64,000 nucleotides of DNA. Source: Sipunculus nudus. Its lineage: Eukaryota; Annelida; Sipuncula; Golfingiida; Sipunculidae. Below the pieces are notes generated by a model that saw only the letters and a list, made by a program, of their open reading frames with translations, did no database searches and had not been told where the DNA came from. Both the position numbers and the translations under genes were made by a program. Below are positions 4,089 through 57,695 of the stretch, piece after piece. The first letter of the stretch is position 1, and every line of letters begins with the position of its first letter. The DNA lies in the NCBI GenBank assembly GCA_026874595.1, contig CM049310.1, forward strand, positions 86,589,056 to 86,653,055, in the 5' to 3' direction.

Positions 4089-7000
4089 AAGCGTGATCTC
4101 ACTACTGTATATTAGTCCTTCATCAGACAGCGAAGGTGGCTGAGTTGATGGCGTGGTTTATTTGCATGTTTGACTGTAGAAGCAATATCTTCGAAAGTTC
4201 TCAGTGACATTTGTTTCAATATACTTTTTGGACGGAGTGCCCTGTCAGTATGGGGGCAACCATATTGGATTACATGCACTGGCCGCCACTAGTGTAATGG
4301 ATCTGGCTCAGCTCAGCTTCACTCACTCATAGTTAGTCTAGTTGTTCAACTGTTGTGTCGTTTATAAATGTACATAGCAAAGATGTTGTGGCTAACCTTA
4401 CCTTCATCTGATGCAACAACAACAGGCAAAAAATATGCAAATGATTATTCAGTGATTTGAATGACAAAAATGCACTTAAATATCAGGTTCTACTGACACG
4501 TATTCACCGGAGACCAGACTTTCAGTTTGCATGTTTCTCAAGGACTTGCTTCCTAATGCTAAAGTTAATTAGCAAGGCAGCTATGCCAGTTACCTGGCCG
4601 GCAAAATGTTATAAGTAATTCCAGTGACCCCGGGTGTCAAAAAATAATACCTGTTATTATTACATTTATAATTATTACCAGTTACTATATCACATGAACA
4701 TTTTAGAGTACCAAGTTCAAACTTCTATCTCATGTTTTAATTATACAGAAGTAATTGGTTTGCACTATTGCCACCATATCTCTTTCTATACTGGAAAGTC
4801 TAGCATAAAGAATGCGTCTGTCCATGTTTGGCAGCATGGTTAAGTGAATAAACAACATGGCTTCTTATCCAAGTGGTCTTGTGTTTTGCGTGTGCTTATC
4901 AAGCATTAGTGATGGCTACAGGCATATTTAAACAAAATAGATGGATTTTTGTGGAAGGACAAGATTCATAGCTTTCATTTTGATCAGTATAATAGAAATG
5001 TGAATCTGGTATTGTCGAATTAATCAAATTCAGTCTAAACTCCACTTTTTGTTTGTTTTTCTGTTAAAACGTGTCGATACATCTGTAAAAAAGTTCCTGT
5101 TACCAACCCGCTCCAAAAATTCAGAAATTCATTAGAATTAATAAAAACTTTTTAATATATTTCGTATATTAGCAAGGTACATTAAAACTGTCGGGCTCTG
5201 CAAAAAAGTTATAATGATCCACTCATTATGAGTCATGAAAGACATATATAACTGCAGCCATGACGTCAACACGATCACGCCTTAATAATCAAGGATAAAA
5301 AGAACTACGTTCACCGGACGGTGTTTCAGTTTCCAGTATCTATAAAGTATCTATAAGCTCGTAGAGATTTTAATGTGTGATATCTATGGTGAATCTGTAT
5401 CTTTATGCACATTAGGTTACAGTGAATAGATCATGTCCGTTAACAGATGTTATGGGACAAGGTTTTTGAGTATCTAGATGCATACGCTATTTTAAAATTT
5501 GTTTAGGTAAAGCCAGTTTTTCTTAGACTGGTTGTAATGCAAAATACTTGCTTATTGTTTGTGAGTTTGTATGATCTGTGTTTCGTAAACGTAAAGTATT
5601 ATTATCGACTATATTGTCATTCTGATTCTTTTATAACGTTAACCGTTTCCTTATGTAATATGCACATTTTGTATCACCTAAAGCTTGATAGAGCTCTTCA
5701 TTATAGAGGAAAAGAAAGATCAATAAATCAATCAATGTTTTACATATGTTCTACAGGTTGTATTACCCTTTTTATAGACTCATTTTGTCAGCTTTAACCT
5801 TTATCTATAACAAACAAAAGGATTTTCTATTGTTGTGTTTACAGAATCATGCTGAAAAGTTTGGAGTACAAACGTGAGATTAAACTGGTGGTTTGTGTGG
5901 TGGCCATTCTGAGCATAGTTAACCCATCGACTCATGCGCAACCTCAACTGAATGACCAGGTCTCAAATACCATCAGTGAAACCAAAGGTAAAAGGCTTAT
6001 GCTTAAAATGATATAATTGTTGTATAAAATTGTATTGAAAAGCTTGAAAGAAACTTTTTGTATACTAGTATTTGGGTATGATTGGCTTTGAATGTTCTAT
6101 GTGAAAATGAATGCACCAATCCAACACTCTTTGCGACCTCATAAAATGTTTAATATCAATGCAGAGATTTTAGCAACGTTCTACTTTAATAGGGTAGAGT
6201 TATTGTTCCTAGTTTTAAAATGGGAGATTTCCTGGGTCGCCTAGGCACGAGATTCTCCTTTTCCTTTTTACCTGCACAAATTAAAAGAGATCGTTTGTAC
6301 ACCTAATAAGCAAAACACAAGGATGTAAACTGCTATTTAGTTGTATAATATCTTAATAAAAACAAGTCATTTTTATCAAATTTGTAAGTTTAACCTTTAT
6401 TTTCCAACCTTTCAGTGACTGATTACTGGGGGAGGAACACGTCACTTTATAACAACTCAGAGGAGTTGATTCTCAAATGGTTGATCAAACCAAAGAACGC
6501 CACGTTATTCTTTATCAAGTGTTTTCATGGATACCAAACAACACAAGAAAACTACTTCTTCACCTATGCGTCCACCAAAGACCGTGTAGATCGACAAGCA
6601 GAACTAGGCAATCGAACAAGCCACGATTTATTCTATGAAGGCGACAAAGCTGTCTTTCTAGCTGAACATTTCACAACCTCGAAGTTCAGATGTCGGTGTT
6701 TACACATGTGTGATGCATGCGGCAGGAACACCGCAGGAGAGAACCGCTCGACTCTGTGTCAAAAGTAAAGAACAAATCCTTAACATATTTTGTCACAGGC
6801 AATTACATTTTGAAATATGAATACATTGCGGGACATCTCAATCTCTCTTCTTTCTCTCTCTCTCTCTCTCTCTAATTGTCCATTTAATAATCACAGGTAT
6901 TTTCAACGGATACCATTCCTAATTTTATGAAATATAGTTACATATGAAAAAGTTAATCATCTTTGCTCGGTTGACTGAAAGTCATCTGAGCTAAAGCAAT

Positions 7001-7940
7001 CACTATTTGTCCGTCGTCCGTCCGGCAGTCCTTCCGCCCATTTGCTATTATCCGGTTGTCCGTTAACACGGCACAAATTGTAACCGCCGAACCCTAGAGA
7101 CTAACTTTTTTTCAAATGGAGGTCCATTAAAAATGTCCCTTGAAACCAGAAGTTAGGTCACTTCAACCTATATTCCCCGAGCTATTTGGCTTGTTAGTAT
7201 CCCAAGAATAATTAAATAACTTGATACATTATCTTCAGTATCTAAATAACGAATGTATTAAAAGCACATTGATCGTGGAGGCTGAGGCATGATTGTGCAA
7301 AGATTTCTGTAACTCACAGAATGATTTTTAAAAGTATAGGTAACATTTAGTATAGTATGCGAAGCTAGTCCTTGAAGTCCTGCACAAAACATTGTGTCTA
7401 TAATTTATCATATTTCCTACTAGTCAAATGGTCTTATGCTAATTCAACTAATTCTGACTGATGACTTTTCACCTCATGTTCCTTTTATTATGCTCAGAGA
7501 CTATAACTATGTCAGATTTTGCTTTCTGTGGATGATTAAATTTCTTTAATGTTTTAACATTTGGGCATCTCATGAATCCATATAGTCGTAATACAGATCA
7601 TGGTTCACTATATGAAAATTATTTTTTCTAGTGGTCATCCCTTGTGGCAGTAACCCCTGTGTCAATGGTGGACAGTGTATTGAGAGTGGAATTTCTTACA
7701 CATGCCAGTGCATGAACGGTTTTACAGGGACAAACTGTAAGACAGGTGAGATCAGGTTTTCTTTTCTTACCAGAAATTGTGCATTTTCATTACCCGCATC
7801 ATGTGGCTAAACTTTTGTCCATTGAAAGAACGTGAGTCACTCCATGTAAGGTCCTATACTTTCAGCATTTAGATTGAAACATTTCCTACAAATTTATCAC
7901 TGCTCATTTGAGTTTCCAATAATAGTTAGGATTGAATATT
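4089..7940 (+). repeat. Segmental duplication carrying gene A upstream DNA and exons 1-3
   Basis: Direct duplicate of 26448-31025. Similarity covers upstream DNA, exons 1-3 and the introns between them, so the duplication is recent. It fades soon after exon 3, near 'ccaataatagtta' in both copies. The B copy has two extra blocks, about 26975-27530 and 28061-28431. The second contains the TATA box of B. Intron 2 carries a CT microsatellite in both copies, short here (6841-6873) and about 50 bases in B. Confidence 0.8.
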
Positions 7941-10273
7941 TATATATTTCTATTTACATATCCCGAAATCTTCTGCATCCCTGACAGACACCTTCTTTGT
8001 AGGAGTGAAAGGAGTACACATTACCACCAAGGTGGCTTTTCTGACTTCACCAAGTGGGCACCAATCCTATGATCCAAACTATGGAGTTACCCACAAGGGT
8101 AAGACTTTTCATCTTTACTTTTAGAAGTCCTATTACTCCTTAAAGTGTTTGTCAAGCTGTTAACATAGAATGTTAGAGCGTTCTCTTTTATGTCTTAATA
8201 AATGATGTGCTTCATCTTCCATATTTTATAACTGGTCATCTGCCTAACTATGCTCTGGTTAGTCGGGCGAGTTGCGCAATTCAAATCCAATAGAAATACA
8301 ATATAATGTGCAGTTGGACATGGATGAATTGGAAACAACATTATGGAGATCCATTTACTAAGATAACCTTAGGATCTACTTGAAAAAGAACGTATGTTGG
8401 TTTTATACATGTATGTTTCTTTACGTTTCTTTAAGGTCCAGGTGAAGATAATTCTTCCCAGGGGCTTAAACTGGCCTTAAGTGTCGTCTCCGTGATCTTC
8501 GTCTTGGTGTTGGCTGTTGCCATCCCAGCATTGATTCAGTTCTGAAGGAAACATGGCACGGGAAATAGTCTCGAGTCTTCCGCTGAAAGGTATGTTAGAT
8601 ACTCGCAAGTACAGTCTGCTTCTGATAAAGCCAAAAGGCAATATTCTGTCTAAATATAAATATATAAGCTCCATTTTAAAAATATCAGAAACAGAAAGCG
8701 AACAATTACAAAGGCTCTTTAAAATCTGTAAAATTGTAGACTCTGTACCAAAATACTTGACTGCAATGTTGTAATAAATCAAACATTTATAATGTATGTG
8801 TGAATAAGTCTGATGCGACTTACCAAGAGAAAAGTATATGGTTACAATTAATTTTCGCCGTTTCTCGATTGTATGAAAGAGGAAATCCAGTTCGGACTCC
8901 CAATATTTGAAGGAAATAGAGAGCTTGTGTGTGTCACTCGTAAGATGTATGCTAATTATGATTCAGAGAAAGTCGGTACCCACCCATCCTAATAGCACAC
9001 ATTCGAAACTGGATGGGGGAAGATATCTACATGATATGGGTGATAATAATAAGTGTACCTTAGTCTAAATCTCAGAACATAAATATTGTCAAGTAATCCA
9101 CGTGAAGTATTCTTTTATTTAAGGAGTTTTACAAAAATTGCGTAGTTTTCACTTACACCACTTCTTCAAAACAAGGCCCAACTCATTTGAAAATGAGTTT
9201 CGCCCATAATGACTCTTACTTTCTTACCCTCTCAATCCTTAAACCCGACAATACATGTGCACGTACATACATAGTTTTGTTTCACATCCTATTCGATGGT
9301 TTCGTTGTTTTGGTGAACAGTTTTGTTTAAAATTTAAAGGGATGTATTCACATACTATGCAGGAGTTATATATATATATATATATAGGAAGTATATTTTT
9401 CTCCTTTACCTGTTATGATATATGTTAATATTTTGTTCTAAATCTATATGCCTACTCCAGTACATAAGTAGAAATACACTTTGATGATTTCCCTGGGAAA
9501 CCATTGTATTCAGTTAAATGAACTAATAAGAAGAGATAATACGTAACTAATAAAGAGAAATAATGCATATAAAATTATTATGTTTACAGTTTAAACAAAG
9601 AAAAAGCAGGAGAGGGTTCAGGAACCCAGGTGACTGATTGTGTAAAAATTCCTCTGTGTCACAGGTAAGGTTGAAACAACTAATTCTTCGTTTATTAACC
9701 AAGCAAATAAGGGGTAATGATAAAGTAGATGCATGTTGGGATTAATGATAAAGTAAATTAAGGTTCAAATTAATGATAATGTAAATGCACGTTTATATAT
9801 TTGTCGAAAAATATCAAAGTGTGAAACTACTTATTGAATCAGAAGGGGGTTTCAATATCTGATACATAAAATAATACAAACAAAAAACACAGTAAAGTTA
9901 AATATTTACTGATCACCGAAACATTGTGATTATTTGCCAATCCATAAAGGCCTATACTTATTAATTGATAAAGACAAATGCATTTTAGGTATTGATGACA
10001 TATTTAAAATTCATGTCCTGAACATTTGATAATAATTTGATATATAATTATTATTAACTTTTTTATGTTTCTATAGTTTCTTATTTAAAAAGGCCAACAA
10101 GAGGATGTGTAATTAGATGAAGAAGAACAGAAGTGACCATAATATATTTTAAAAAATGCAACACGTGTTCATGTTCATATATTTTACTTCTAAATCCTCA
10201 ATTCAAAGGTAACATTTTTAGGAGTGAAGATTCAGACATCCCCAGTGAGGACATGAGCGATACCATCACTTGA
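5849..10273 (+). pseudogene. Gene A: disrupted Ig-EGF transmembrane receptor
   Basis: Seven exons with consistent phases: 5849-5987 (signal peptide ending STHA), 6416-6764 (Ig domain), 7632-7745 (EGF, C-x4-C-x5-C-x8-C-x-C-x8-C), 8003-8098 (Ser/Thr-containing stalk), 8436-8589 (transmembrane helix), 9590-9664 and 10222-10273 (acidic tail ending DTIT, TGA). Two lesions break it. Exon 2 has one extra base near 6659 compared with B, shifting the Ig frame just before its F strand and bringing a TAA at 7651-7653 after splicing. In exon 5 the codon after the helix is TGA (8543-8545), where a CGA would open a basic stop-transfer sequence that continues in frame into exons 6 and 7. A splice acceptor (…tttacag, 5844) precedes the ATG, implying an upstream leader exon, but the promoter block seen at B is missing. 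Exons 4-7 resemble neither B nor C. A sequencing error could explain one lesion but hardly all three. Confidence 0.78.
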
Positions 10274-10534
10274 AATGCCTAATGATTGTACAAATATGAA
10301 GATCTCCTGATTAGAGGACTTTTTTTATCTCGACACCAATAGCTCCTGGTTGTTTTGTTTGTTTTCTCTTTTTGCTCTCCTTCAAGGACCACATCTCACA
10401 TCTTTTCAATTTCAATTTTCATTTTTGTTTATATTTTATATATATTTTGTTCAGCACTGTTTGTATTTAAAAGCACTTCCGCAATATTCTCGTGATTGAA
10501 TCTAGGGTACACCACTTATTGCTTGATACGTAAC
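10274..10534. other. 3' flank of gene A
   Basis: AT-rich sequence following the stop codon at 10271-10273, probably the start of the 3' untranslated region. No frames of interest. Confidence 0.4.
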
Positions 10535-10690
10535 CGGCTTCTGTTGACTAGTGCTAGGGCACGGGCCCTGAAGCCGAAAGATCATGAGTTTTATTCTCAG
10601 CCGAATAGAGAGATTTTCCACGGTCGCATTCTCCCAAGGCGACTGCTTTATTGGAAGGTTGTGCCTCTGCCCTCCCCCACACTAGCAGGT
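10535..10690 (+). mobile_element. tRNA-derived SINE remnant
   Basis: The stretch 'ctagtgctagggcacgggcc' followed by 'gaagccgaaagatc' and 'gagttttattctcagccg' resembles the A-box and a decayed B-box half of a tRNA head (GGTTCGATTCCCAGCCG in intact relatives). It is followed by the body 'agagattttccacggtcgca' typical of V-SINE-like invertebrate SINEs. It ends near a CA/TA microsatellite. Family assignment is from memory of such elements. Confidence 0.5.
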
Positions 10691-10884
10691 GTACACACAC
10701 ACACACATATATATAGATATATTCGCCAGCATTTTTTTAATGGAGGTGAATACTTTAAAACAATTATAAAAATGCTGTTAATAATTCTAGTTCTAATTAT
10801 ATTATTTGTAAATTATATTTTGTACATAGTACTTATTACGTACCTCACTGCCAAATTTAGCAGGAAGCTATCTATGACTGTCTC

Positions 10885-10890
10885 AATAAA
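10885..10890 (+). terminator. Candidate polyadenylation signal downstream of gene A
   Basis: The first clean AATAAA after the gene A stop lies about 610 bases downstream, beyond the SINE remnant. If used, the 3' untranslated region would include the SINE. Not certain. Confidence 0.25.
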
Positions 10891-10899
10891 ATAGCTGTA

Positions 10900-11202
10900 A
10901 GATATCATGTTTTCGTTTAATTGTTAAACTTTGTATGCATATTTGCTGTCGTTTTTATTGGAATGCCTCCATCTTATGTAATACCATTTCGCCCCGTTAT
11001 ACAAAGGGCAAAATAGTATTATCAAACCAGGCCAGACAACATTTGTTATTCTCTTTTGGGTAGCGATACTCAAGTCCAAAAAACTTCAAAGTGGCGTTTT
11101 ATGGGATCCAAATAGCTATATAAGGGTCGTTTGTACTATTTATTTGTATTATTTTTTTTTTGTAAAAAAAATTCTTGTGTATCAAGATTTTATATAAGAG
11201 AC

Positions 11203-11258
<56 letters not shown>

Positions 11259-11823
11259 CTATCAATATACAATGTTGCATTCAGTATGACTTTGACAGAG
11301 TATACAATGGATTTATTATGCTCTAAACAATGTCAGATTTGCAATATTCCTGAATTCTTCAAAATCCAATGATTTAAATTAACTTGACATACAGAAAACA
11401 TTGCTATGTATCAGTTGCTAATGTGTTGAATAATCTGAGAAATTATGACTATATGAGTATTCTATTTTATATAAGATATGACGTTAAATGTTTTTGATTT
11501 AAACTTCCTGCATGTCAAATTGTAAAGTTCGCCTACACAGTGTGTGGCTCGAGTTGTATGTTGAATTTTCGTTTTCATGGTCCATTATATATATATATAT
11601 ATATATATATATAATGCGTTACATATATGTCAAGTTATCATTGGGGAGTGTCAGTATATTTTCATGTATAGATGCTTCAATTATGACCATTTGGCCTTTT
11701 AAAACCAAATTGCTGCTGGAGTTATGTCAACCAGAGTCTCACCTGCATGCCAAGGGGGAAGATAAAATAATCTTATCTCATTTGTGCCTGACCAGCAGAA
11801 TATTTTTAATTTGTTCTGGTGCC
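10900..11823. repeat. AT-rich spacer with two TA microsatellites
   Basis: Contains (TA)n at 11206-11257 and 11586-11612. The remaining sequence shows no gene; the frame crossing the second TA tract is an artefact of the repeat. Confidence 0.6.
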
Positions 11824-12282
11824 TGTTAGATTATAACTCCAGGTGCAGATTAGTGTAAGTAAGCAAACTCAGGGTGAAATATTGAACCCTGAGGGAGTAT
11901 CAATAACAGGCCATTTGTGAGCGACAGGCCGAGTGAGCCAATAGCTGTCTGAGATGATCGAAGCATAGATCTTTTAGGGGGAAAACTAGTAAGGGAAGGG
12001 GATTTTAAGAAGAGGTCGGGTTGAGACACAGAGGGATGTGAGTTGACTCCCAGCCAGTCAGCACGGATCTCGCGACCTGGTCGGGGGAGGAGGGGTTCCG
12101 TTTGCTTGGTGGTGGGACTCCGAGAACAACAAGCTTATGGTAACGGTGAACTGTAACAAGCTATAACTGATAGTAAATGTAACCTGTAAAGCCATACAAT
12201 CTAGCTCCAATTAAACAATCAATTTTCTATCAAGTGTTCAGTGTTCTGTGTGTGTGACCGGACAGCCTGAGAGAGCTTTACA
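11824..12282 (+). mobile_element. Possible solo LTR
   Basis: A block of distinctly higher GC begins TGTTAG and ends CTTTACA. Its 3' part ('caattaaacaatcaattttc' then 'gtgttctgtgtgtgtgaccg') resembles the R-U5 end of Gypsy-type LTRs. No second LTR, primer-binding site or coding remnant is adjacent, and no clear target duplication was seen (flanks differ), so the call is tentative. Confidence 0.3.
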
Positions 12283-12740
12283 AATGTATTTGTATATTTT
12301 TATTTGTTATGCGTATTTCAATGTTTGTTTGGCCGAATAAATCGTATTGATTATAAGTACAAGAATATCGTTGTCTGTCAATTTTGGGATGTAGATGAGA
12401 ATGAAAGAATATATGAATACGCGAACATTAATTACATCGGCTTTCATGTAAATAAAAAGCATAAGTGTTTTACTCACTACTGCAGTTTTATTCACCAATA
12501 TATAGGGACTTTCCTTAACCACCTGATCTAACCAACATTGATTAATATACTTTTTGCACCATTGTTAATTTTTTCATTATTTCGTCCTGCTGACGTTAGG
12601 AATATCCTTTTCGAATATAAGTATAATGGATATAAATTATTTTGATAGACTCAGAATAATACATTCCATTACTTTCGTACACTTGTACTTTAATACTTGA
12701 AAGAGTTAGAAACCTATCTAAAATGTTTTTTAATCAACAA
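12283..12740. other. Spacer, nothing recognised
   Basis: AT-rich. Opposed 70-residue frames overlap on both strands at 12304-12531 with no recognisable motif; probably chance. Confidence 0.4.
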
Positions 12741-12749
12741 ATGGCACCA

Positions 12750-13385
12750 ATCCTTAACACAGGTGGCTACCGCTTAACTCACACGTTATTGCAGCCAAAT
12801 CTAACGAGGAGTGACATCTGGTGGGTATCATCAGAGTCACTGTCTTAAACATCCCCCAGGAATCCCCCGGTGTCAGCTAACCCATACATTGACCTCTTCT
12901 GATAACGAGACTATATAAAATGGCTAGGGTAAAATGATCAACGTAAGAATAACTGAGGTGGTAATTGATGATATTAAATTGTTAAATTTAATTCAAAATA
13001 ACATATAACAGAAAGTTTATATTACGAAATCGAAATAAAACCACAATCCAACAATACATTACACAGATTATGGGTCAAGGATTATTGTAATCATTCTGAT
13101 TGCTATGTTAGAGTGTTCACGGTTTTTTTATTATAAATAAAAATACAAGCCGCAACGGTGTTTAGTTAATAAATTGACTCTCAATACTGTCAGGGGTATT
13201 CATCTGTTCTGCATATTAATACATGTATATGTAATAGTGCACCTTTGGGTGAGTATGATTGATTTTTTTTACTACAAAACAGTCCTCATTGACATGCATG
13301 TACCAATGAGTTTTATATTAAATACTAAGTACAAATAACTGATAAATAGCCTTAAGGTTAGGATCTTAATTTCGGATCTTTATTA
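12750..13385 (+). repeat. Repeat family R1, copy a
   Basis: Diverged copy of a roughly 0.6 kb repeat recognisable by 'aacatcccccaggaatccc', the 'ctatataaaatggctagggt' region, 'cacaatccaacaatacatta' and the end near 'gccttaaggttaggatctt'. Other copies lie at 14517-15150, 40694-41027 and 41569-43260 (split). No coding capacity. Class unknown. Confidence 0.7.
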
Positions 13386-13389
13386 CCTA

Positions 13390-14179
13390 CAGTGGAAAAC
13401 ATATGTGACAACAGAAAAAAAAACAGATGTAACACCTAGTGTCTGAGATTCATGAATCATCTGGTGTCTGAGATCCATGACACGGGCTGGACTAGCAGCT
13501 ACAAACCTCCATGTATCATTCTTTCAGATAATATACAAAATATTATGAAGAAAGGGGATATAATATCTCTAAGTAAACAAAGTAAGGTAAACAAACATGT
13601 CAATTAATACTGTATCAACTAATTATGATTAGCATTGTTAACTGACCATATAATCTAATCATAACATATCTATATATACATACAGAGAGAGGGAGAGACA
13701 GAGAGAGCCTAAGCGAGAGAGACAGACATACAGAGAGAGGTGTTTTCACTTTGAGCGGGTCTTTTCTGTGTATTCACGTCCCAGCTCTCTTTACATTTAA
13801 ACCTTCTTGTCAATATGTATACAGTGGCCTGTGCACCACGTGACAAAGATGATAAATTTACCGAATGATGGCAAAGTCACATTTTAAATTAGATCTTCTG
13901 TGTTGTGATTTATTTCTCAATGAAGATATAAATAGGTATAAATAATGTCTATATTAACTAGTAAATCACTCTTATTATACATAGGCAGTTGGAAAGGCAA
14001 ATTGATAATAGGTCCCTTACATGTATCCCTGTTTTAAATTAGCAGCTTATAGGTCGACACTTCATATGATTTCACTTTTTCCTATTATGTTGTTGTCAAA
14101 AGCTTAATTAACAAAGCAATTGTCACTGCTAAATCCACATCGACCGATTCAGAAAAAGAGTTGACCACATCGTCTTCTA

Positions 14180-14185
<6 letters not shown>
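13390..14185. other. Spacer with GA-rich tract
   Basis: Contains an imperfect duplication ('gtgtctgagattcatga' and 'gtgtctgagatccatga', 13439-13480) and a GAGA-rich tract (13682-13740). The 'acagtggcctgtgcaccacg' at 13823 recurs as 'acagtggcctatacaccatg' at 43442, so the R1-associated similarity extends past the core repeat. Confidence 0.5.
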
Positions 14186-14246
<61 letters not shown>

Positions 14247-14296
14247 ACTGGCAGTGAACCACTTATCTGTGTATACCCTTTCCATCTATCTATCTA

Positions 14297-14338
<42 letters not shown>

Positions 14339-14343
14339 ATATA
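14186..14343. repeat. TA microsatellite pair
   Basis: Two (TA)n blocks separated by a short unique piece and (CTAT)n. The reading frame across them is repeat-derived. Confidence 0.9.
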
Positions 14344-14516
14344 CATTCAATGGTGCAATATCAGACACGTGTGTATCGGAAATCCTTTTATATCATTATT
14401 CATATATATCATGAGTCATCATTCCTTATACATGTGTGGCGGGTTAAAGGTGCCGAAGGACTTAAAGATTAGGGATTAGGTGTAAACAGAAAAGACGGAC
14501 GAAGGAGGAAGGTTTA

Positions 14517-15150
14517 CACTAGCGGTTGCGGGTTCTGGTGGTAAAATACCTTAACATGTTATTGAAGCAAAAACATGAAGCGGAGTCACCTCTGGTGAAC
14601 CCTCTCGGTATCACTGTGATAACCAAAGACACAAAAAACATCCCCCTGGTATTCCCTGGTGTAAGCCAACCTATATATTGATCTCCTCTGACACCAGGAC
14701 CATATAAACATGACTAAGGTAAAATGACCGATGTAAAAATATCTAAGATTCGAATGAAATATGTAAAATAAATTTATTTCAAAATATGTTACAATAGGTT
14801 TAAAGTTTAAATTGCAAAATCCAACATTCCCAATAACACATTGCACAGAAAATAAGTAAAGGATAATTGTAATCATTTTTATGGCTACATAATTTTTTAT
14901 TGTACATAAACATATAAGCCACAAGTGTTTTTATTTGATAAATTGCCTCTTCTTACTGCCAGGGGTATTAATCCTTTTTGCATATCGATACATGTTAATA
15001 GTGCAAATGCTGTTGGTAAGAGTGATTGGTTGTTTAACAATAGAGTCCCCTTTGATGTACATGTACCTATGAGTTTTATGTAAAACGCTGAGGTAAAAAT
15101 TACTACTAAAAATGGCCTTGAGGTTCGGATCTTTATGATTTAAATATCCA
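14517..15150 (+). repeat. Repeat family R1, copy b
   Basis: Begins 'acactagcggttgcgggttc', as does copy d at about 41569. It then carries 'aacatccccctggtattccc', the 'accatataaacatgactaag' region, 'gattggttgtttaacaatag' (also at 43193) and ends near 'ggccttgaggttcggatctt'. Confidence 0.75.
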
Positions 15151-15279
15151 TATTTTAATCCAAGTTTAGTTACTGTCATTAACTACTTTCAATGACTGGC
15201 AGGACTTTACTATTGAAAACAAAAGCATAAAATCTGTGTTGTTCCATTTATTATTATATTAACGTTTCTAGTCCACATT

Positions 15280-15324
15280 CTAGTCAATTCAAATCCCCCT
15301 TCCTATATCCTGGATCCACCCCTG
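15280..15324 (-). mobile_element. Terminus of a hAT-like repeat
   Basis: On the minus strand it reads CAGGGGTGGATCCAGGATAT followed by AGGAAGGGGG, nearly identical to the element starting at 63747. The CAGGGGCGGATCCAGG end is, to my knowledge, common on non-autonomous hAT-type elements. The other end was not found. Confidence 0.5.
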
Positions 15325-15469
15325 ACGCGTCTACCGTCAGTGTTTAATCAAAATGTGATAATGCTGGCCCTAGCAACCTGTGTACTTGGGGAACATTCTA
15401 CGTCACAGTGAACCCGGGGTGGTTACAATAGAATTGTCAGGATGTCATAATTGGTCGATATTGTGGGAA

Positions 15470-15600
15470 CACATGAGTAGTGGAAAAGGAATACGAACAA
15501 TTGTTTAATAAGAAAACTTTGTATGTAGATGGCTTTCAGTCCCACAGACACCTGCTGGTAATTATGACGTGGTGTCGAGTGGTCAACCAAAATACCAAGG
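15470..15600 (+). mobile_element. tRNA-head SINE fragment, copy 1
   Basis: Shares 'agtggaaaagga' and 'acgtggtgtcgagtggt' with 18545-18660. The latter resembles the A-box of a tRNA-like head (GTGTCGAGTGGTTAA). The two copies are similar over about 120 bases, with gaps. Confidence 0.4.
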
Positions 15601-15865
15601 GGCTTTTCTCCTGTAATCTTTATAGGACATGAGTTGGGAAGTGAACGCATGTGTTTTGCTTCATTTATGCCGAATCATAGCTTGTGCTGTCGACCGTGTG
15701 ATCCGTTATGCTTTACCCCTCACAATCTGTTTTTATAAGGTTAAAAATCCACCAACATCTATTCTGAAAAGCAGTTCCACATTTTACAACCGTACAACCG
15801 CCAAATGTTGGTATTACGAATTCAACCTTATATCAGATAATATTCTTTCCTCAATAAAATAATAA

Positions 15866-18059: not shown

Positions 18060-18180
18060 GTGTCTCTCGTAATTATTACCTATAGAAGTGTCGAACATGG
18101 CAGGTCAAGGTGAGGTCACGGCTTACTCCAGCCACCCCACATCGAATCTGTCATTTTCCATGTTCATTATTTGCATACCG
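18060..18180 (+). repeat. Dispersed repeat shared with 44860-45010
   Basis: The stretch 'aattattacctatagaagtg' with 'cccacatcgaatctgtcatt' and 'ttccatgttcattatt' recurs with substitutions at 44860-45010. No coding capacity. Confidence 0.5.

Positions 18181-43306: not shown

Positions 43307-43368
<62 letters not shown>
43307..43368. repeat. TA microsatellite
   Basis: Long (TA)n after a GACA-rich tract (43256-43270). All reading frames through it are repeat artefacts. Confidence 0.95.
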
Positions 43369-43372
<4 letters not shown>

Positions 43373-43547: not shown

Positions 43548-43550
<3 letters not shown>

Positions 43551-43596
<46 letters not shown>

Positions 43597-43720: not shown

Positions 43721-43744
43721 ATATATATTTATATATATAAATAT

Positions 43745-44859: not shown

Positions 44860-45010
44860 ACCTACAGAGGTTTCGAACACGACAAAGCTAACTTGAGGTC
44901 AGGATAAATTAGCACTAGCTAGACACAATATCAATATATGTTCCCTGAGAGGCTTACTGCTCACTTACAGTCTGTTTACTCGGCTCAGCCCACATCGAAC
45001 CTGTAATTTT
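44860..45010 (+). repeat. Dispersed repeat shared with 18060-18180
   Basis: 'aattattacctacagaggtt', 'cccacatcgaacctgtaatt' and 'ttccattttcatttctta' correspond to the copy near 18.1 kb. Confidence 0.5.
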
Positions 45011-46164: not shown

Positions 46165-46721
46165 CCAAAACACACTGGCGCGGGCGGCAAGCGGGGGGCA
46201 AGCCTTCACGCTGCAGGTACGCGGCATTTTCACAACAGACAGGCGCTGACGGCACTCGGCAAATTTTGAGGAATAGCTTTGGAATACCAAGACTTTTTTA
46301 TGGCATTTTATATGTTTGTATAAAAAACATACCCCTGTATAGCATAAATTTCATGAAATAGTAATGATATCTCTTGGTAAACAATAATTAGGATTTATTA
46401 TATATGAAACAATATGTTCTATATAAATATATATGCCTGTAATTTACATATCAAGAAATAATGTATAAACATGCATATTTCTATATGTATACTTGTTATA
46501 TATGTTATATTCACTCATACCCTTAACTTTATATTGAAGTATACAAATATAAGGTGTTAATTAAATGCCTTTCACTTGAATTTCAATCGACACAATATAT
46601 ATTCACATGAAATCCGCAAGCGGGCGGCAAGCGGCAAAAATCGCTCCAGGAGCGATCGCAGAAACTCGCCTCGTGGCCGCCCGCGTAACGCACGCGTGCC
46701 GCATGCCTTAGTGTGTTTTGG
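46165..46721. mobile_element. GC-rich terminal-inverted-repeat element
   Basis: CCAAAACACACT at 46165-46176 and AGTGTGTTTTGG at 46710-46721 are exact inverted ends. Similarity continues inward as GCGGGCGGCAAGCG against GCATGCGGCACGCG. The terminal regions are strikingly GC-rich in an AT-rich surround. A subterminal hairpin (ATCGCTCC/GGAGCGAT, 46639-46656) is present. No transposase frame and no certain target duplication; superfamily not assigned. Confidence 0.6.
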
Positions 46722-49041
46722 CCTTAATTTGAGAACTACATCAACAATTTGACATTTTGTTTATCAATAAATTTCCCTGTACTTGTGAAACACGAAAACA
46801 TCATCCCGCATTAATCAATATATAAATTGCACATAAGTGATGTTTACATCAAACAGAGATTTTCTGTTTATGTACGAGGTAAAATTTATAGGATATTTTC
46901 TTGTTATTCATCCATCCTAACAAATGCCTATATTAACCATGTATAGGGTGAGTCTAGTACACTGAAAAGACAACCATATAAATACTACATTTTTTATATT
47001 AACCCTAACATCAAAAGTTGGAATAACCGTCAGTAATTAAAGTGATGTACATAAAATAAGGCTGTACACATATAAAAAATCTGTTTTTGCAATTTACTAA
47101 TATGCTCTAGTATAAGAGAAAAACAAATGGGGTTAAAACTCCCATACCTATCATATGTTGAAAGAAAATAGTTTGACATGCTGTTTGCTGTTCTATTTAC
47201 TTCCTGTTTAGTCATGTTATAATTTCGAATATTTATTTAGACGCCAGAAGATGAGCTCGAAATTAGGCTCTCGGTGTATATTAAGGTGTTGATAAGTGCA
47301 TAACACACGACTCGAGTACAATATACTCTTATGGTTCAAGATATCAGTGTTTGATTCGATTATGAATCAAGCTAATCGCGATATATAAAACAGTTGTATA
47401 TACACACTTACCCTCTGAAACCACACTTCTGCCTCTGAAGTATAACTTGGCACAGGTACCGTTATAGACCACACATTGTAAGACCGATATATATCATCGT
47501 CAATGCGGGTCTTACGCCAGTTTCAACTGGAGTTGAACTGTCCTAAGCCAGATCAGTTATACACAGCCATGCAGTTTGTGGATGAGAGAACGTCATAGTA
47601 GACATCCATTTTTTGTAAGCAAAATTGAAAAGAATCATCATATATAATTGGGACAAAATTAAGTGTTTTTTTTTACAGAAGTTTAAGTTTAGTGTGACAG
47701 GGTGTGTTTGTGTTTGCTCAAGTAAGTCATTTTCATGCCATTCAATATCCTGCGCAAGTTGTGTACACACGTAAACGTGATAATTTTTACATTGTTCGCA
47801 TCCAGTGAAGTAGCACATGGTGTTTTGTACGGCGTATTTTTGTCATTTTCGTCATTAGCCGCTTAAGGTCATACTATCACACCAGTCTGCATTTTACAAT
47901 TGGTTTGGTGCAAGGAAGTTGGATCTAGCCGCTGTATCGGACAAGTATCGCAACTTTAAAACCGCAAGCAACACACAACAAATGGCTATTTTTACAGTCA
48001 CTGTCACAGGTCAAGGTTCACTCGCTGAAGTCAGGGTGTGTTTTTTGTCTTACAGTCAGGTCAGTAATTTCATGGACGACAATCCTATATCAATAAGTTG
48101 TTTACACACGTAACACCTGATGTTTAAAATGCAAGTCACATGCAGGGGAGTGACACAGCATGTTTTGCCCACAACTTAAATCAATCATCAATTCATCAGA
48201 TATATCTACAGAGCCACATGCAAACATCGAAAGACCATGGCTGTGTTTACAGTCACAGTCATAGGTCAAAGTTCACTTATTGCAAGTATTTCGCTATAAT
48301 CACTGATGGGCATGTTACGCAGCGACTGATGAAATAATACAAGTATTGTTTAAATTGTGATTAAGTACGGATTATCTAAATTTCATCGCGTGTATGCATG
48401 AACTGTGTTTCAGGTATCATCGCTGTTTTATGAATGAATGACTCATTACAGCGTGAACACATGTAACGACGATACAGTGTAGATACAACCGCAAGGTCAG
48501 TTAAAACCCAGTTGCAGAAGACACAGGACGTCCAGATCTGTGGCCGCAAGTTCAAATTTATTACACGTTTATGTCAACAGGCGATTGTAGGTGTGATACT
48601 TCTTATCGTACATTTTAGCACATTGCTTCGGGAATTTTTTTACTTCTTGCAGAGGTGAGTTTGATTAACAATTGAACTTCTAGATGGCAACTTAAACTTT
48701 GTGTACATACAAGCTATACCTACATGATAGAGAGCCGATAAACCAACAGCCATTAAGCCAATTCCTCGTTAGTCACTAAATGCCGTGCTCTGATGTGGGT
48801 TACCACATGATGGTGAAAAAAAAATACTAGTCTAGTATCAAGAGTACTGTTGTCAGATACAGACGTGTGCCACCATTTTGTTAGGCTGTGTTTAAATATA
48901 GCTATGTGCACTACGTCCTGTACTGTATGACAAAACGGCATCTACTTCCCCTAATTTTTATGAGCAAATCAGGGATCCGATCGGAATAAATCACATTTAA
49001 AGAGTGTAACTGTGCCTAGAAGATTTGTTTCGAGACAGCAC
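46722..49041. other. Spacer with scraps of the R2 family
   Basis: Two related scraps (47985-48030 and 48240-48290) repeat 'ttacagtcac' and 'aggtcaa.gttcact', as in R2. A small hairpin GTAAGACC/GGTCTTAC lies at 47479-47515. No gene supported. Confidence 0.4.
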
Positions 49042-49874: not shown

Positions 49875-52800
49875 CTGATATTATACCATCAGACATACGA
49901 ATTTCCCATTTAAACATAAACAGATCTTCGGTACCAGTTATGAATTATGATTACTTTCGTTTTATTCTTGGGATCCATTCCTTTCAGGTGCTTTGCTCTC
50001 AGTGCTAATTGAGCCTAATTCTAATGACATTTAACTTTAAAGAATACCAGTAAAATTTACTTTAAAACACATTTTCATTTCCATTTATAAACAGGGTTTG
50101 ACGGTTTCCACAATATGCATTAACTGAATTGACTATTACTATAACAAAGGCGATAATTTAGAACATATATGACACCGCTGTACTGGGAATATCTATATTT
50201 GTAGGCCGAAGTCCAAACTGTTTTTTGTTTTCCATAATTTTGTTTAAAAATATAGTTGATATTTTAAAAATATGTAGGTACGTGTGAAATAGATATCTCC
50301 TTTTTAAATGAAAGAGTATAGGAACTCGTTTACATGCACTAGAATCTATAGAATGGTATGGCTGAAGAGAATAAAACATAAGATTTATTGGTTTTACCTT
50401 TTGGACCTCAAACAGGTTATAATTTACATGTTCATATATTATTACTGGTGCAAAAATGGTCTGAAATTTCGGTTACTTTAATGGTTGACATGTAGAAGTT
50501 GTGGCGCTATGGATATTTTACGGATTATAAAAACTAGCGGTATTAATATGATTTATGTCCATGAAGCATGATGCAGAAAGACGGTTAATAATTTTTTAAA
50601 TATATGCTAATATATATTTAGCATATATAAAATAAATGGGATTTCAGATTTATTGTATTTCGAGAAATTATATGATTTTTTTCAGTTTTGGAATCAGTTT
50701 GGAGAGACAAAATACTGTTAAACATTACTCATGTTATTCGTTCTACTTTAAGCTTATACCCATGTTTAAAATATAACTTTTAAACTAAGGAACAATCCAA
50801 TTAATAAAAGTTATATCCAGAAATTACTTGTTCTTATATTTGAGTGTAATTCAATTATTAGTTGTTACTCTAGCCATCCATACTTTTTTCTAATTTTGAT
50901 ACAGAAGTATAAACAAATATAGAACGTGGTCTCCTAATGTACAAAAGAAGACGGTGTAAACAAATTTTAATTTACGGGTATGATAAATGCTGGAGACCAA
51001 TTTTTATTCAAACTACTCAAGCAGCGTTACGGTCAACGAACCTTTACAATTAGGAGGGGGGGGGGGGTGTTATATGCATTTCTTATCTACACTTTTTTCA
51101 TGATTCTAAGATTGATATTGAAAAGGAAACCCTTTCAGTGTGACGTTACAATAAGCTGTCTGCCTGGTACTTGTTTGATAAATTAAGGAAGTGACCCATT
51201 GGAAAATTTGTTTACAGCACGACCTTGATATCATTCACATTATAAATACATGTAAATGCTAATAACGTGCCTTTAATGTTGTATACCAAATCGTATTGGT
51301 GTGTACTCCCGAAATATGTGGACACAAACTGTATTGCTATTTGAGTAAATGTTATAGTTGTGGTGAAACCTCTCGTTTAAATATTGCAAGATTAACAAAG
51401 TACCAATGTTTAGTACCGTCATTCAAAACTTTTCATACAACAAGTATTCCGGATTAACAATCGCTGGCATGAGAGGCGGGGCGAATGACCTGATAAAAAA
51501 TGCAATCTGCGCAAGCGCATTGCGCTATGTAGGCCATATTGTACCATATACTGTATTGGTCTACTCACGGATACGTTCAAGTTGACACAAAATGCATCCT
51601 TTGCCAAGTTAATGTTATAGTTGCACTTTCTCCTTTTGTTTAAATCTCTCAAGATTACACACGTACTCCATTTTAACATTGAATACAGCTGGTAATCGGC
51701 TGTAAAACCAACGGCATGAGAGGTGGAGACTATAACCTGATAATAAATCTCAAGTTGCGCAGGCGCGTCAGGCCTGAGGTTACATGTTCCATGGATACCA
51801 AGCTGAACTTTTCCCCTGTGACCCATATAATTCTATCTTCCATGCGTACTTTGCAAAGCAATAACCTTTACACAGATACCCTTTTCACACAACTGTGGTG
51901 TGTATCATTCACTTGGAAGCCCGTGTAGTATTTAGATTGAGATCACGTACAGACGTGGATCCATATTATATTTTCAGTACAGTTGGCTTTATTTCACCCC
52001 AAGAGTTCAAATTCGAGATTTTTGGGGTTAAATCATTAATCCAATAGCTGCATTTATTCTCTTTCCCATGTTGACAGGCGATTTTCCCTTCATCTGCGAC
52101 ATTTTTTTAATCGATTGCTGTCTAACTTAAGTTCATTTTCGCCCCGGAGGTACTCTGGTCATCTATCAACTTTCTATGTAAATTAGTACAAGTATTAAAT
52201 CGTAATCATATTTACGATTACATTCTATTCTTATTGTTTAAATTTTTAGTGGGGCTGCGAAATAAAACTTAGTAAAATAGTTACATTTTACCCTGTATGG
52301 CTAACTGTCAGGTAGCCTATAAGCGTTTGTTTCCAGGGTACGTTACATTTTGATGCTGAAATAATTTCACCAAAACACGACATAGGCTACGTAGGCTATA
52401 GTGAAAATACCACTGATCGGACTTCAATAATGCAGACTATAACATGGACAGAGCTGAAAACTATACGGGCCTCTTTATAATGTATGCTAAAGGACCCTCA
52501 GTAGCTTTTTCGGTCACCGACCTGATTGTAGAAATGCATGTTTGCATACCTGTTGATAAATATGTGTATATGTTGGAAATATGCGTGTCATTAAGTAGTA
52601 GTAGGCCTAATATATGTAAAAGTCAGCTGAGTCTCGTTGCCTATGAGCCACATACGAGCTGTATCACTCTTATTATCATTTTTGATATTCCTTTCATTTA
52701 GTTATTGATATTGTATTATTAAATAAAGGGGAAATGAAGTTACAGGTTATATATTTTTTCCAGATCTGACATATAAACAGATATTTAGACGCTACAGCGG

Positions 52801-52886: not shown

Positions 52887-52983
52887 ATGCGTGCACGTGG
52901 AGCGTTGTTGTTGCTGTTGATAGCCAAATTTGCCATATCATCACCTACTTTTTGGTCCAATGTGGCGGAAGGCGAAACACCAG
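52887..52983 (+). CDS. Gene C exon 1, signal peptide
   Basis: MRARGALLLLLIAKFAIS with likely cleavage before or after SSP. Ends in phase 1 at GTAGAT, the same phase as exon 1 of A and B. Confidence 0.75.
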
Positions 52984-55018
52984 GTAGATTTATAGTCATG
53001 TTAAAACTCTCTCTAAAGGAAACCAATTTCAGTTTTTAAGCATTGAATATGCGGAGCTTATATTTTATTATCAGTGGGTGATTTTAGCTAAGCTGACTGT
53101 AAGTCAACTGAGCTAAAGTGATCGGTTAGTCCTCTGTCTGTCTCTCCGTCCGTCCAGCTGTCTGTCTGTACAATAGATCGGCACGTTTTTACATCGTTGA
53201 ACCAAGAAACCTGTAATTAGGTCACTTTGACCTATATCCTCCGAGCTATGTTGCTTGTAAGTACCCCCCCCCCCCCCCCACACACACACCAAGAATAATT
53301 TAAAATTTGATACAAAACCTTCAGTATCTTGATAATTCCTGAAACCTTGTGTGTTATTAGGGCCCCGATTAAATAAGCCGATGCCCTCTCACCCTCTCCG
53401 TCAATCTGTCCATGTGTTCGTCTCTCTTTATGTCCGTTAAAATTGTTTCCTGGTGATAGCTCCAGTTTGAATTGACAAATCGATTTGGAGGATTTTACAC
53501 TTGAACTATATAAGGCCCACCTCTTAAGCAAGAACTCTACTGATTTTTTGGTCATGAGGACAAAGGTCAAGGACAGTTAGAAATGTTTAGAAAGATTATG
53601 GATACATTTTGAGCCAAACCTTTTATCACAATTCTTCCATCTTGCAAATATAGTTGACCTGCAAATAGAAGATCAACCCGACTGATTGGGGGTCATGAGG
53701 TCAAAGGTTAAGGTCACAGGGGTCATCTTTTCACATATTTGGTTCCAACTTGACTATTATATGGCCTATCACTAAAGTAAGAACCCTCTTGATTTTTGGG
53801 TCCTAAGGTCAAAGGTCAAGGTCACAGAAGGCCACTTCTTTTAAAAGATTGTGGCTGCATTTTAAGCCAAAGTTTATTCCAAACCATCCATCTTCTACAT
53901 TTTGCTCACCTGCCAATAGCTGAAGAAAATTATGGATTTCTGGGGTCAAAGGTCAAGGTCACTGAGTCCGTCTGTCCACATATTTGTTTCCAAATGATAA
54001 CTCCAGTAGGAATCACAAATGGATATCAAACCTGTTCTGATTTGAAAAATTGACAATTTTATTATTTTTTAAAGCCGTCTGATTTTAATTAATAAATTCA
54101 ATGTGTATTATTATACTTTGATCAACTTATCTCCACTTTCTTCCTTTATTTATAATTTACATGCATATTAGTCATTTAGTTCACAAATCAAAGCTAAAAT
54201 GTAATCATGGGATAGTTCTGACATCCTAATTCCTTGTTTATATATACATATGTGTGTGTGTGTGTGCGTGAGGGTGAGGGTGTGTGTGTGTGTGTGTGTG
54301 AAACATAATTGTGATACATGGCATCTGGTCAATTATGTTTCCAGTGACGGGATTCACAGGGGTTCCATCAAAGATGTACGACCGATCAACATCTGTTAAT
54401 CTGACCTGGTTCATACATCCAGCGAATGCCACAGTCATATGGATAAAGATTTTCCATGGTAACAACACAGTTGACGAAAACCATGTCTACTCCTTCAGTT
54501 ACCAGAATGCCTGGGCATCACCAGAATTCCATGGACGTCTTACCCATAATCTATACCTTCAAGACAATGCAACTGTATTTCAGCTGACATTGACTCATCC
54601 CAAGTCTTCAGACACGGGTGTGTATGTAGGCGTGTTGTACGGGGCTGGTTCTGGTGAACTACTGGTGGAAAGGCTCACCTTAACAGGTAAGGATAAAGTA
54701 CTGAATAAAAATAAAATCTTCTGTGAAAGTGAAATTTAGAAAATATGCCACGATGCATTGGAAAGCAACAAGTGTAAAAGCAAAATTTTAGGCTAATATA
54801 CATGTACTTAAATTTACTTTAGATAATATGCTTGAAGTGGGTTACTTATCTACCTGTATAGAATAAATATTTTATGTTCGTGCTATTCTTTCTCATAATT
54901 TATAGTGCATCAATTAACCCAAACAACATTTATAAATAGCAATATATATCTTCCTATATTTATCATTCTGATGAGTACAATGCTTTTCCTCACAAAATCA
55001 TAAAAATACGATGCATCA

Positions 55019-55073
<55 letters not shown>

Positions 55074-57695
55074 TGATTCTGTTCCAGATGAAAATGCAAC
55101 GCAAGCCTCCGTTTCTAATCAAACAGATGGAGATTCCGAAAAAAGTAAATATTTATGATAATTCAATTTTATCTTAGCAGTTTCTAGTGAATGCAGTTTT
55201 CATTAAAACTTGTGAGTATAGTTATAAGAAATAATTCATATACATGAATAATTCGTATTAATTAATAATATATGTTTAAAAGTTACTCCATCGTTCGATT
55301 TATCCCATTGGTTAGATATTGTGTCGTTTTTTTCATCTTTTTTTGTTTCCTTCTTTTATCTTTAATTTTGTTTATAAATGGATCTAGATATGCAGTAACA
55401 CATAGCGTTCACACTTTTCTTGTCTTTGATTAGATAAAGGCTCATTAAAGTTGGTTTTTAAGGCACTTCTTATAAATCAGTGCGGCGGGGATTGCAATCC
55501 TTTGCAACTTTTTCTTTTAAGTCTTAAAAAATAGATGACCAGGGAATAGCAAGCTAGTAACAGAATTGTTTTGCTATTATTGGTAGAGGCACAACATAAA
55601 AAAAACGAAATTTTATAGAAATATTATTTTCTTGAAAGCTGGAGCTCAAAATCGGCGAAGTTCTACTTAAATCATATAAAATGCCTTATCAAGAATGACG
55701 TGCAGGGTAACTGAGAAACAAACGTTTCTCCCCAATACATATATATTTTTCTGAATTTGCATTGTTGTCGATACAATATTTAAGAATCAGGGTATATAAG
55801 AAACATTTATAAAGCCTTAGAGCATGGTTACCGTTCAGTAATCTAAAATAGTCTTCACAGCAGACAATGCAATCTACTTATATAATATCTACTTTAAAGG
55901 TCATAGATATTGTTTAGTTATATAAAAGGTTAAATTATAATGTTGTTTTATAATCGTTTCAGAGGCTGGCATCAGCATTACCGCTGCAGTTCTGGGCGCA
56001 ATCGGAGGTCTAATCGTTGTGGCCTTGTTGGTCATGGCAGCAAGAAAGGTCATGAATCAAAGAGCCGAAGTTCAGCAGAAAAAGAAGGAAAATGACTCTG
56101 AGGAGGGCATCGGGTAAGCAACGCAAATCCGTTCAAATTATTTTAATTTATAGTATATAAAAGATGTCAAAATAATATTGCGGCAACACAAACAGGAGGT
56201 CACTTGGTTTAAGAAAAACGATTATGTAACCAGTGAATATATGTATTAATATTGAGATTGTAAAATCTTGTAATCGTAAAACTATTTCAGTTGCTAAAGA
56301 CTAGCGAGCCGCTTGTTATCAATTAAACACAGTAACTTTAATGCAGTTATACTTACACAATGTACCTGGCAACTCGTGTAAATATCTTAAATTCGAAGAG
56401 AGCATAGACTAATAAATAAAACTTAGATCCGAGCTATAACAAGCATGGCATTACGTAAACACTATATGTTTATAACAACAAGTAGCCTGAAGACCGTGCC
56501 GGCAGATGAAGAGAGGAAGGAGGATGAGTGTGTTGAGGATACACAACCATATGTGACAGGTAAGCGTACTGTTTTAAGATTTGTATGTCGACAGATTTTC
56601 TGGAGGTATATATACTCATGACGTAGCCTCATATCATGTTCAAAGACTCATATATATATATTATATGTACATGCAATTAAACAAAAATTCAGGTCTGCCA
56701 AATTACTCTTTTATAAAAAGAGTGACTCTTTTTTGAGGAATTACGAAAAATGACGCTAATTACTCTTTTTCACTCTTTTTGCAGCACCTCTTTTATCCCT
56801 CTTCTGTTTCAGTGTTAGAATTCCGATATGTATCTGTATATATTATTTCTCTCCTGCCATAACAGTCCATTCAGAACAAGAATAGGACACTTCAGAATTC
56901 TTGTGTGCAAATGTCCAGAATGTGTGACAACATATGGAAAATACCTGTAATCTTTATGCAGGGAATGTGCACCATGTATATTTCTTTTTTATATATACGT
57001 GGTATGCTAAGCACATCTTTATTCAGTTTGTGATAAGAATGGGTAATGTTGCTAATTTTTTCACTCTTTATTTCAAAGAAGAGTTTTTTTCAGTAATTTA
57101 TCCTTTGCAGGCCTGAAAATAGCCATTGGATTGAATCAAGTTTGGAATTTAATTTCGGTCCGGCTAATGTACACGATGACGGCTATCAATATGTCATTAT
57201 TTTGTATTTTTCATTTATTTGATACCCCGAATAATGTGCTACTTAGTAGGTATTACAAGTATCACAGAGCACATTTTAAGCTTTTTTTTCTGTATACGCA
57301 GATTATCCATGAGGTACACATTTAATCATGTATGAACTGCACATACTGCATTAAAGTATATTTTTCATTAGAAACATACCATAACTAATAAAAGATCAGA
57401 AATATCATGGGGTTATTTGCAGGTTTTTGCATGTATAAAGTAATTTGTGTATTCAAGTTTACAAAAGGTACAATTACAGTAGAATGCCATTGAAACATAT
57501 TTGTTGATAATGCAAAATTATATTCACATGTGAACTATGGGCCTGAGACATTTTATTTTCTGGTAAAAAAAAATTATGTGTAATATTTGTTATTCAATTA
57601 TAAATATATGTATGTGTGTGTGTCTGGAAGAGGAAAATGTTTCATTATGTATGAAATTAATGATTGATCCGTCTGCAGGTGATAACGGAAGATGA
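52887..57695 (+). CDS. Gene C: Ig single-pass transmembrane receptor
   Basis: Six exons with GT/AG junctions and matching phases: 52887-52983, 54345-54686, 55088-55144, 55963-56113, 56483-56559 and 57679-57695 (246 residues, TGA at 57693-57695). Residues 1-19 are a leucine-rich signal peptide, about 33-146 the Ig domain, then a 19-residue stalk rich in Asn, Ser and Asp in place of an EGF domain, a membrane helix (AAVLGAIGGLIVVALLVMAA), and an acidic tail with EERKEDE. The helix exon and final exon correspond to those of gene B. The tail lacks an obvious ITIM or ITAM; TQPYVT has the only tyrosine. The acceptor of exon 5 is a tandem AAG/TAG, so one residue (Ser) may be optional. Expected on the cell surface. 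Function is unknown beyond receptor-like architecture. Confidence 0.78.
53085..53980 (+). repeat. Intronic dispersed repeats with nuclear-receptor-like half sites
   Basis: The left part ('gtcaactgagctaaagtgat', then CCGT-rich) is the same repeat found in intron 2 of A (6964-7250) and B (30054-30340). The right part consists of three or four units ending in AGGTCAAAGGTCAAGGTCAC-like blocks (53700-53725, 53805-53824, 53943-53960), which read as DR1 arrays of AGGTCA. A C run and CA tract lie at 53266-53288. It is repeat-derived; regulatory use is untested. Confidence 0.6.
54345..54686 (+). CDS. Gene C exon 2, Ig domain without the canonical cysteines
   Basis: A symmetrical phase 1 exon of 114 codons that aligns with the Ig exon of A and B: VNLTWFI against LILQWLI, ATVIWIKIFHG against [28 protein letters not shown] against [17 protein letters not shown]. 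The B-strand position is Trp, the C-strand Cys is Ile, and both F-strand cysteines are lost (VYVGVLYG). Five N-glycosylation sequons remain (NLT, NAT, NNT region, NAT). Confidence 0.8.
54687..57678 (+). other. Gene C introns 2-5
   Basis: Contains a TA microsatellite immediately before exon 3 (55020-55070), a hairpin ACTCTTTT-ATA-AAAAGAGT (56705-56723) within a stretch of repeated 'actctttt', and otherwise unremarkable AT-rich DNA. Confidence 0.5.
55963..56113 (+). CDS. Gene C exon 4, transmembrane helix
   Basis: Starts phase 1 and ends phase 2 like exon 4 of gene B. It encodes A-G-I-S-I, a Gly/Ala/Val-rich helix, a basic stop-transfer RKVMNQR, and then KKKENDSEEG. The G-A-I-G-G motif could favour helix packing, which is speculation. 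Confidence 0.8.

Follow-up and report, generated by a model that had tools for sequence, protein, structure and literature searches.

The window considered here, that is, the whole 64-kb stretch of DNA analysed (GC content 36%, from base counts), contains three receptor genes, termed A, B and C, all found on the + strand and suggesting by their anatomy an animal source. The first exons of these genes are separated by 23.07 kb (A to B) and 23.97 kb (B to C). Exon models were drawn up manually on the basis of open frames and splice sites, and splicing by script was then used to test them. The models of B and C were found to be intact from ATG to stop, corresponding to proteins of 304 and 246 amino acids, respectively, with all introns being of the GT-AG type. 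The intron phases of the two genes are identical (0-1, 1-1, 1-1, 1-2, 2-1 and 1-stop), as is the order of their parts, namely, a signal peptide, a V-like Ig domain, an EGF domain (B) or a short stalk (C), a membrane exon and two tail exons. Symmetry of the ectodomain exons, as claimed in the first-pass annotation made from the letters of this DNA, was confirmed, with exon 2, exon 3 and the stalk exons all being of phase 1-1. The membrane exon is of phase 1-2 and the following exon of phase 2-1, such that these two are not symmetrical.

In the case of B, the signal peptide is encoded by exon 1 (28920-29058; spliced model), the V-like Ig domain by exon 2 (29489-29836; profile search, Pfam below cut-off), the EGF domain by exon 3 (30717-30830; PF00008, E 6.5e-9), the membrane span by exon 4 (31498-31651; tblastn to C, shuffles and exon scan) and the tail by exon 5 (32061-32167; intact ORF) and exon 6, which includes the stop codon (34215-34267; spliced model). 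In C, the spliced model provides the signal peptide exon (52887-52983), the stalk exon (55088-55144), the tail exon (56483-56559) and the last exon with its stop codon (57679-57695). The Ig-like exon 2 of C (54345-54686), which encodes no cysteine, is 31% identical to that of B at the amino acid level, and the membrane exon (55963-56113) was recognized by tblastn, shuffles and exon scan.

Exon 3 passed the EGF profile PF00008 in both A (33.1 bits) and B (36.3 bits; cut-off 21.5). When the Ig exons were considered, Pfam matched B at E 0.0015, i.e., below its cut-off, and gave no match for C, and a profile combining the B and C Ig exons retrieved Ig chains from the PDB at E 3e-5. Sequence searches of the PDB returned generic Ig chains with B alone and a single chance hit with C alone. 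The fold predicted for the B Ig domain comprises nine strands, at low confidence (pLDDT 59.2). With this low-confidence model, Foldseek yielded no match at E 0.001 or better; among the 50 matches listed, the best was a CD8 chain (E 0.0088), accompanied by many antibody, nanobody, CD8 and MPZL1 structures and also by unrelated folds. The F-strand signature D-x-G-x-Y-x-C is present in B and, in another frame past an extra base, in A; C retains D-x-G-x-Y but not the cysteine. In the same low-confidence model, the canonical disulphide between the B and F strands is absent from gene B, which has no cysteine in the modelled B strand, and Cys82 (C strand) and Cys144 (F strand) form a candidate pair. 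The ectodomain of gene C is cysteine-free throughout, with all of the cysteines modelled in the C and F strands of gene B being replaced.

A single-pass topology is supported for both B and C. The tails of the two proteins, of 75 and 54 residues, respectively, contain no ITIM or YxxL/I pattern, so that any signalling by B or C would use another route. Judging from their sequences, B and C look functional, and their anatomy suggests that each would be anchored in the membrane, with its single Ig domain as the site of binding to a partner.

Gene A opens with a signal peptide exon (5849-5987) that is 89% identical at the nucleotide level to exon 1 of B and ends with a GT donor. This is followed by an Ig exon with a broken frame (6416-6764), which at 349 nt carries one extra base relative to the 348-nt exon 2 of B, an EGF exon (7632-7745; PF00008, E 6.7e-8), a 111-nt stalk exon for which no counterpart was found in B (7988-8098) and a 154-nt membrane exon (8436-8589) in which an in-frame TGA appears immediately after the hydrophobic stretch. 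A candidate tail exon (9590-9664) shows marginal or non-significant likeness to B or C, and a candidate last exon (10209-10273) shows no significant likeness. With the splice sites chosen, the tail exons of A are joined in a phase that differs from that of B and C. Given the extra base in exon 2, the TGA in the membrane exon and the phase mismatch of the tail exons, A has most likely decayed, with a sequencing or assembly error being possible. A GPI-type A is a less likely reading, kept because GPI-anchored CEACAMs are proposed to have originated through stop codons in membrane exons (PMC2832619).

Self-comparison of the masked window gave 54 self-hits in total, local tandem repeats included; in a shuffled-window control, 14 of 15 shuffles gave no self-hit and one gave a single self-hit. 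Elsewhere in the window, 145-963 and 1552-2385 (+ strand) encode tandem, intact, single-exon proteins with signal-like starts that are 75% identical at the amino acid level (dN 0.16, dS 0.48). This pair presents FN3 matches below the Pfam cut-off and an N-terminal part that is Ig-like by eye only; a scan of prokaryote genomes with the FN3 pair gave 11 pattern matches and no relatives. A Pfam search of five other ORFs found no family in four and a sub-threshold chance hit in one (COX2_TM, E 0.057). Neither Rfam, at gathering scores, nor ARAGORN returned anything from the window.

Comparison of A with B revealed that the ectodomain halves of the two genes are far more alike than are their membrane and tail halves. 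Exons 1-3 of B, together with their introns and upstream DNA, had been described as a recent copy of A, and they are indeed a near-copy, with A 5356-7943 and B 28429-31028 being 91.7% identical. The match ends abruptly inside intron 3, 198 bp past exon 3. Across this main tract, identity is 89-97% by exon and intron, and no DNA hits were obtained when A 7944-13000 was compared with B 31029-39000. Additional matching pieces, 84-93% identical by piece, extend upstream to position 3313 of A, the outermost (A 3313-4081) being inverted in B. The recent tract thus spans 3313-7943 on the A side and 24748-31028 on the B side, the latter including stretches absent from A (25539-26448, 26971-27532 and 28073-28429). 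These may be insertions; no clear target-site duplication was seen by eye at any of the three. An element at the upstream end (3313-4092, 24748-25626 and 51454-51676) shows likeness in all three units, with the A copy inverted relative to that of B. The possibility that A and B are haplotigs of one locus was rejected, as a distance of 23 kb separates the two within the window and their 3' halves differ. Short likenesses of intron 2 of A and B to C 53081-53335 were set aside, since these look like a shared repeat.

Divergence along the tract is uneven. A change-point was located at position 6420, with 111 of 1,052 sites differing before it and 64 of 1,518 after it, and none of 300 permutations gave a break as strong. 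When noncoding sites alone were considered, a subset assessed without permutation, the break fell at 6911 (105 of 1,055 sites as compared to 27 of 914). There were probably, therefore, two exchange episodes, one older and the other younger, shorter and running from intron 2 to intron 3; a rival source of the drop in divergence is local constraint in intron 2. Between A and B, dN/dS is 1.15 for exon 1 (3 synonymous and 12 nonsynonymous changes in 46 codons) and 0.31 for exon 2 (dN 0.045, dS 0.146), with exon 3 showing no synonymous and six nonsynonymous changes in 38 codons. The exon 2 value fits constraint on the Ig domain during part of that time. At the 22 positions at which exon 2 differs between A and B, C is like A at 11, like B at five and like neither, or gapped, at six, a distribution that gives no direction of exchange.

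The 3' exons of A had been said to match neither of the other genes. In terms of plain similarity this stands, since A 7944-13000, with no DNA hit to B, gave only one weak DNA hit to C, and tblastx of the A 3' exon region returned no convincing match to B or C. In terms of anatomy it does not, as A 8436-8589 has exactly the length (154 nt) and phases of the membrane exon of B. When both strands of the window were scanned for phase 1-to-2 membrane exons that span 140-170 nt and encode a hydrophobic core, four candidates were obtained in three places, namely, A (two overlapping candidates), B and C, with none on the minus strand and no fourth place in the window; the scan, having used criteria chosen with the exons already known, demonstrates rarity rather than independent discovery. 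Together, the phases of B and C, the anatomy of the A membrane exon and the regular spacing point to the three genes being tandem paralogues of one receptor architecture.

At the protein level, the membrane exons of B and C are 37% identical (tblastn E 4e-4), a likeness reached by none of 2,000 shuffles. The corresponding likeness of A to B is weak, being equalled by 70 of 2,000 shuffles, and that of A to C is not significant (737 of 2,000). For tail exon 5, shuffles did as well in 277 (A-B), 21 (A-C) and 89 (B-C) of 500 trials, so that even the B-C likeness is not significant; for the last exon, the respective numbers were 56, 226 and 5 of 500. The membrane exon, the sole part of the 3' half that can be compared in all three genes, hence favours grouping B with C, with A appearing decayed there. 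Three sequences allow only one unrooted tree, and grouping of the 3' halves by tree requires an outgroup. As the 3' exons of A are not clearly alike to those of B or C in the shuffle tests, the 3' half of A could be unrelated.

The flanking DNA was considered in the same manner. Comparison of B 31029-39000 with C 54700-64000 gave 12 hits, all forward and roughly collinear, at 58-88% identity. Chance was rejected as the source of this likeness, given that 29 of 30 shuffles gave no hit and one gave a single hit. The earlier assertion that both the membrane exon and 3' flank of B resemble C accordingly holds, and the flank match, previously taken to end at 37085, continues to B 38295 and C 63746, pairing B 34784-38295 with C 58149-63746. 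Within these matching flanks, short tandem repeats occupy matching places (36791-37086 in B, with a shift of 148 bp, and 60020-60489 in C, with shifts of 91, 187 and 270 bp). The proximal B-C likeness is absent from A, in which the far flank match begins just 2.5 kb past the last exon; A may, at a guess, have undergone a deletion here. Farther downstream, A 12775-21414 and B 40683-48032 share 11 forward and no reverse hits at 62-84% identity, seven of which fall in a repeat cluster in mixed order and four of which lie beyond the cluster and are collinear. One reverse A-B hit was found elsewhere (24202-24405). Several copies of a repeat family are present in the downstream flanks of both A (12781-15136) and B (40427-43254). 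In the 5' flanks, B and C share two short hits in swapped order. Judged by identity, the B-C likeness is far older than the A/B tract, and the A-B far-flank likeness is about equally old as that of B-C; the C counterpart of the far flank lies outside the window, such that the B-C and A-B flanks were compared over different stretches.

These comparisons give good support for exchange, or for partial copying, between paralogues, since the 5' halves of A and B are 89-97% identical, as opposed to 62-84% identical or unalignable for the rest of the units. The simplest account of the far-flank hits and of the first-exon spacing is an old array of tandem units, somewhat weakened by the location of seven of the 11 A-B flank hits within a repeat cluster. 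Because the B-C and A-B far-flank likenesses are similarly old, B may simply retain its own inherited tail. The first-pass annotation had gone further, describing B as the ectodomain of A combined with the membrane and tail part of C. The exchange between paralogues stands, but a tail derived from C is more than the old B-C likeness can bear, given that A itself possesses a membrane exon with the length and phases of that of B and downstream flank matches to B.

The explanation favoured here, to which a probability of roughly two in three is assigned, is that the three genes form an old tandem array and that a bounded exchange resembling gene conversion later homogenised A and B over their 5' halves, with B keeping its own tail and A having decayed. 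The gene models, the regular spacing, the A/B tract with its abrupt 3' limit and the difference in age are read directly from the genomic sequence of one haplotype, on which the favoured account rests. From these, exchange is inferred as the mechanism. Accounting for the locus in this manner, A, B and C would be three old tandem copies of a single small gene for a type I receptor, each unit being about 23-24 kb long. The layout of this gene comprises a signal peptide, a single V-like Ig domain, an EGF domain and/or stalk, a single membrane span and a short tail. Once these copies had diverged, a bounded exchange would have made A and B alike over some 4.6 kb, from the upstream DNA up to and including the EGF exon, with a second, later and shorter exchange probably reaching from intron 2 to intron 3. 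With the tract ending in a phase-1 intron, B would have remained readable, its A-type ectodomain being joined to the membrane and tail portion that it had itself inherited. A may have either donated its ectodomain to B or received that of B. In general terms, conversion in a tandem array that ends in a phase-1 intron can change the binding half of a receptor and leave the frame undamaged.

Of the other explanations, an unlikely one holds that B is a true mosaic, with B and C being sister genes and the 5' half of A having replaced the original ectodomain of B, thereby joining two lineages. The membrane exon, near to C and not clearly to A in the shuffles, the proximal 3' flank common to B and C only, and a 5' half in which A is close to B and C distant are all as this would predict. 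At the same time, decay of the 3' half of A would itself lower its likeness to the others, matches exist between the far flanks of A and B, the far flank of C lies beyond the window, precluding comparison over the same stretch, and the sequence gives no direction for the A/B exchange. A further, improbable reading is that of an undescribed cluster whose tandem genes pass a V-like Ig plus EGF ectodomain among themselves and differ in their anchoring, B being a tailed type I receptor, A its tail-less GPI-like twin or relic and C a cysteine-free relative. Repeated conversion would then keep the ligand of A and B shared, in the manner of vertebrate paired receptors, with no ITIM or ITAM being involved. 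It is very doubtful that A is instead a 3'-truncated copy of B, comprising upstream DNA and the 5' half placed beside unrelated membrane- and tail-like sequence. Such partial duplication would be in keeping with the lack of DNA similarity past the tract, the broken frame of A and the non-significant tail-exon likeness, but not with a membrane exon of B length and phases, of a kind that the scan finds only in A, B and C, nor with the regular unit spacing of A and the match of its far flank to that of B. Finally, that the 5' exons of A serve as an alternative head for the downstream exons of B is barely credible, for despite all exons lying on the same strand and a phase-1 junction following exon 3 in both genes, B and C each possess a complete gene structure, first and last exons included, and the sequence gives no call for splicing across 23 kb.

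The homogenisation proposed for A and B has precedents. The closest is the primate SIGLEC11/SIGLEC16(P) pair, the ectodomains of which are described as having become extremely similar by repeated gene conversion in which a nonfunctional partner allele was involved (PMC5701461). A and B are alike to this pair in both ectodomain similarity and the probably nonfunctional partner. By contrast, SIGLEC11 and SIGLEC16 are lectins for sialic acid whose inhibitory and activating signalling is known, and B offers one Ig domain, an EGF domain and no recognised motif; opposite signalling tails, a trait of paired receptors in which an ITIM is set against an ITAM or a charged membrane residue, were not found at the level of tail motifs, the tails of B and C containing no ITIM or YxxL/I. 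CEACAM1-related activating and inhibitory genes, which differ in their tails, are described as having undergone conversion or recombination involving the N-terminal Ig exons (PMC2832619), and A resembles this case in both the proposed conversion at such exons and the membrane-exon stop codon. That account describes tails with ITIM or ITAM and, as excerpted, does not mention an EGF exon, such as A and B possess.

Among invertebrates, Hydractinia Alr genes are described as clustered single-pass receptors with V-like Ig domains and many pseudogenes, for which exchange between loci has been suggested (PMC3276163, PMC11067881). A, B and C are alike to these in clustering, in a probably decayed member (A) and in the proposed exchange, with a V-like Ig ectodomain on a single-pass protein being a candidate likeness. 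Signalling-like tail motifs are reported for Alr proteins; no ITIM/ITAM-like motifs of the Alr type were found in the tails of B and C. The Botryllus fuhc locus holds clustered receptor families, among them fuhc-sec (Ig and EGF), fester and FcoR (PMC12065747, PMC3691228). Like B, fuhc-sec combines Ig and EGF in one protein, but is secreted and has two EGF domains (PMC12065747). FcoR tails bear an ITIM or hemITAM, unlike the ITIM-free tails of B and C, and the other fuhc architectures described there differ (PMC12065747, PMC3691228). An allorecognition or immune role, as suggested in the first-pass annotation, is a candidate reading for A, B and C by likeness to such complexes. General literature searches, of a kind that cannot show absence, found no description of this cluster.

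The locus illustrates a known process well and is not a new kind of system. Bounded exchange of the outer half is a known route by which receptor families trade binding domains, a principle already established for vertebrate paired receptors and suggested for Hydractinia. What merits attention here are the two apparent episodes, the boundary within a phase-1 intron and the decayed partner. If confirmed in other individuals, the A/B tract would offer a compact example, with clear limits, of receptor paralogues sharing an ectodomain, in which it would be testable whether conversion keeps ligand binding shared as anchors and tails drift.
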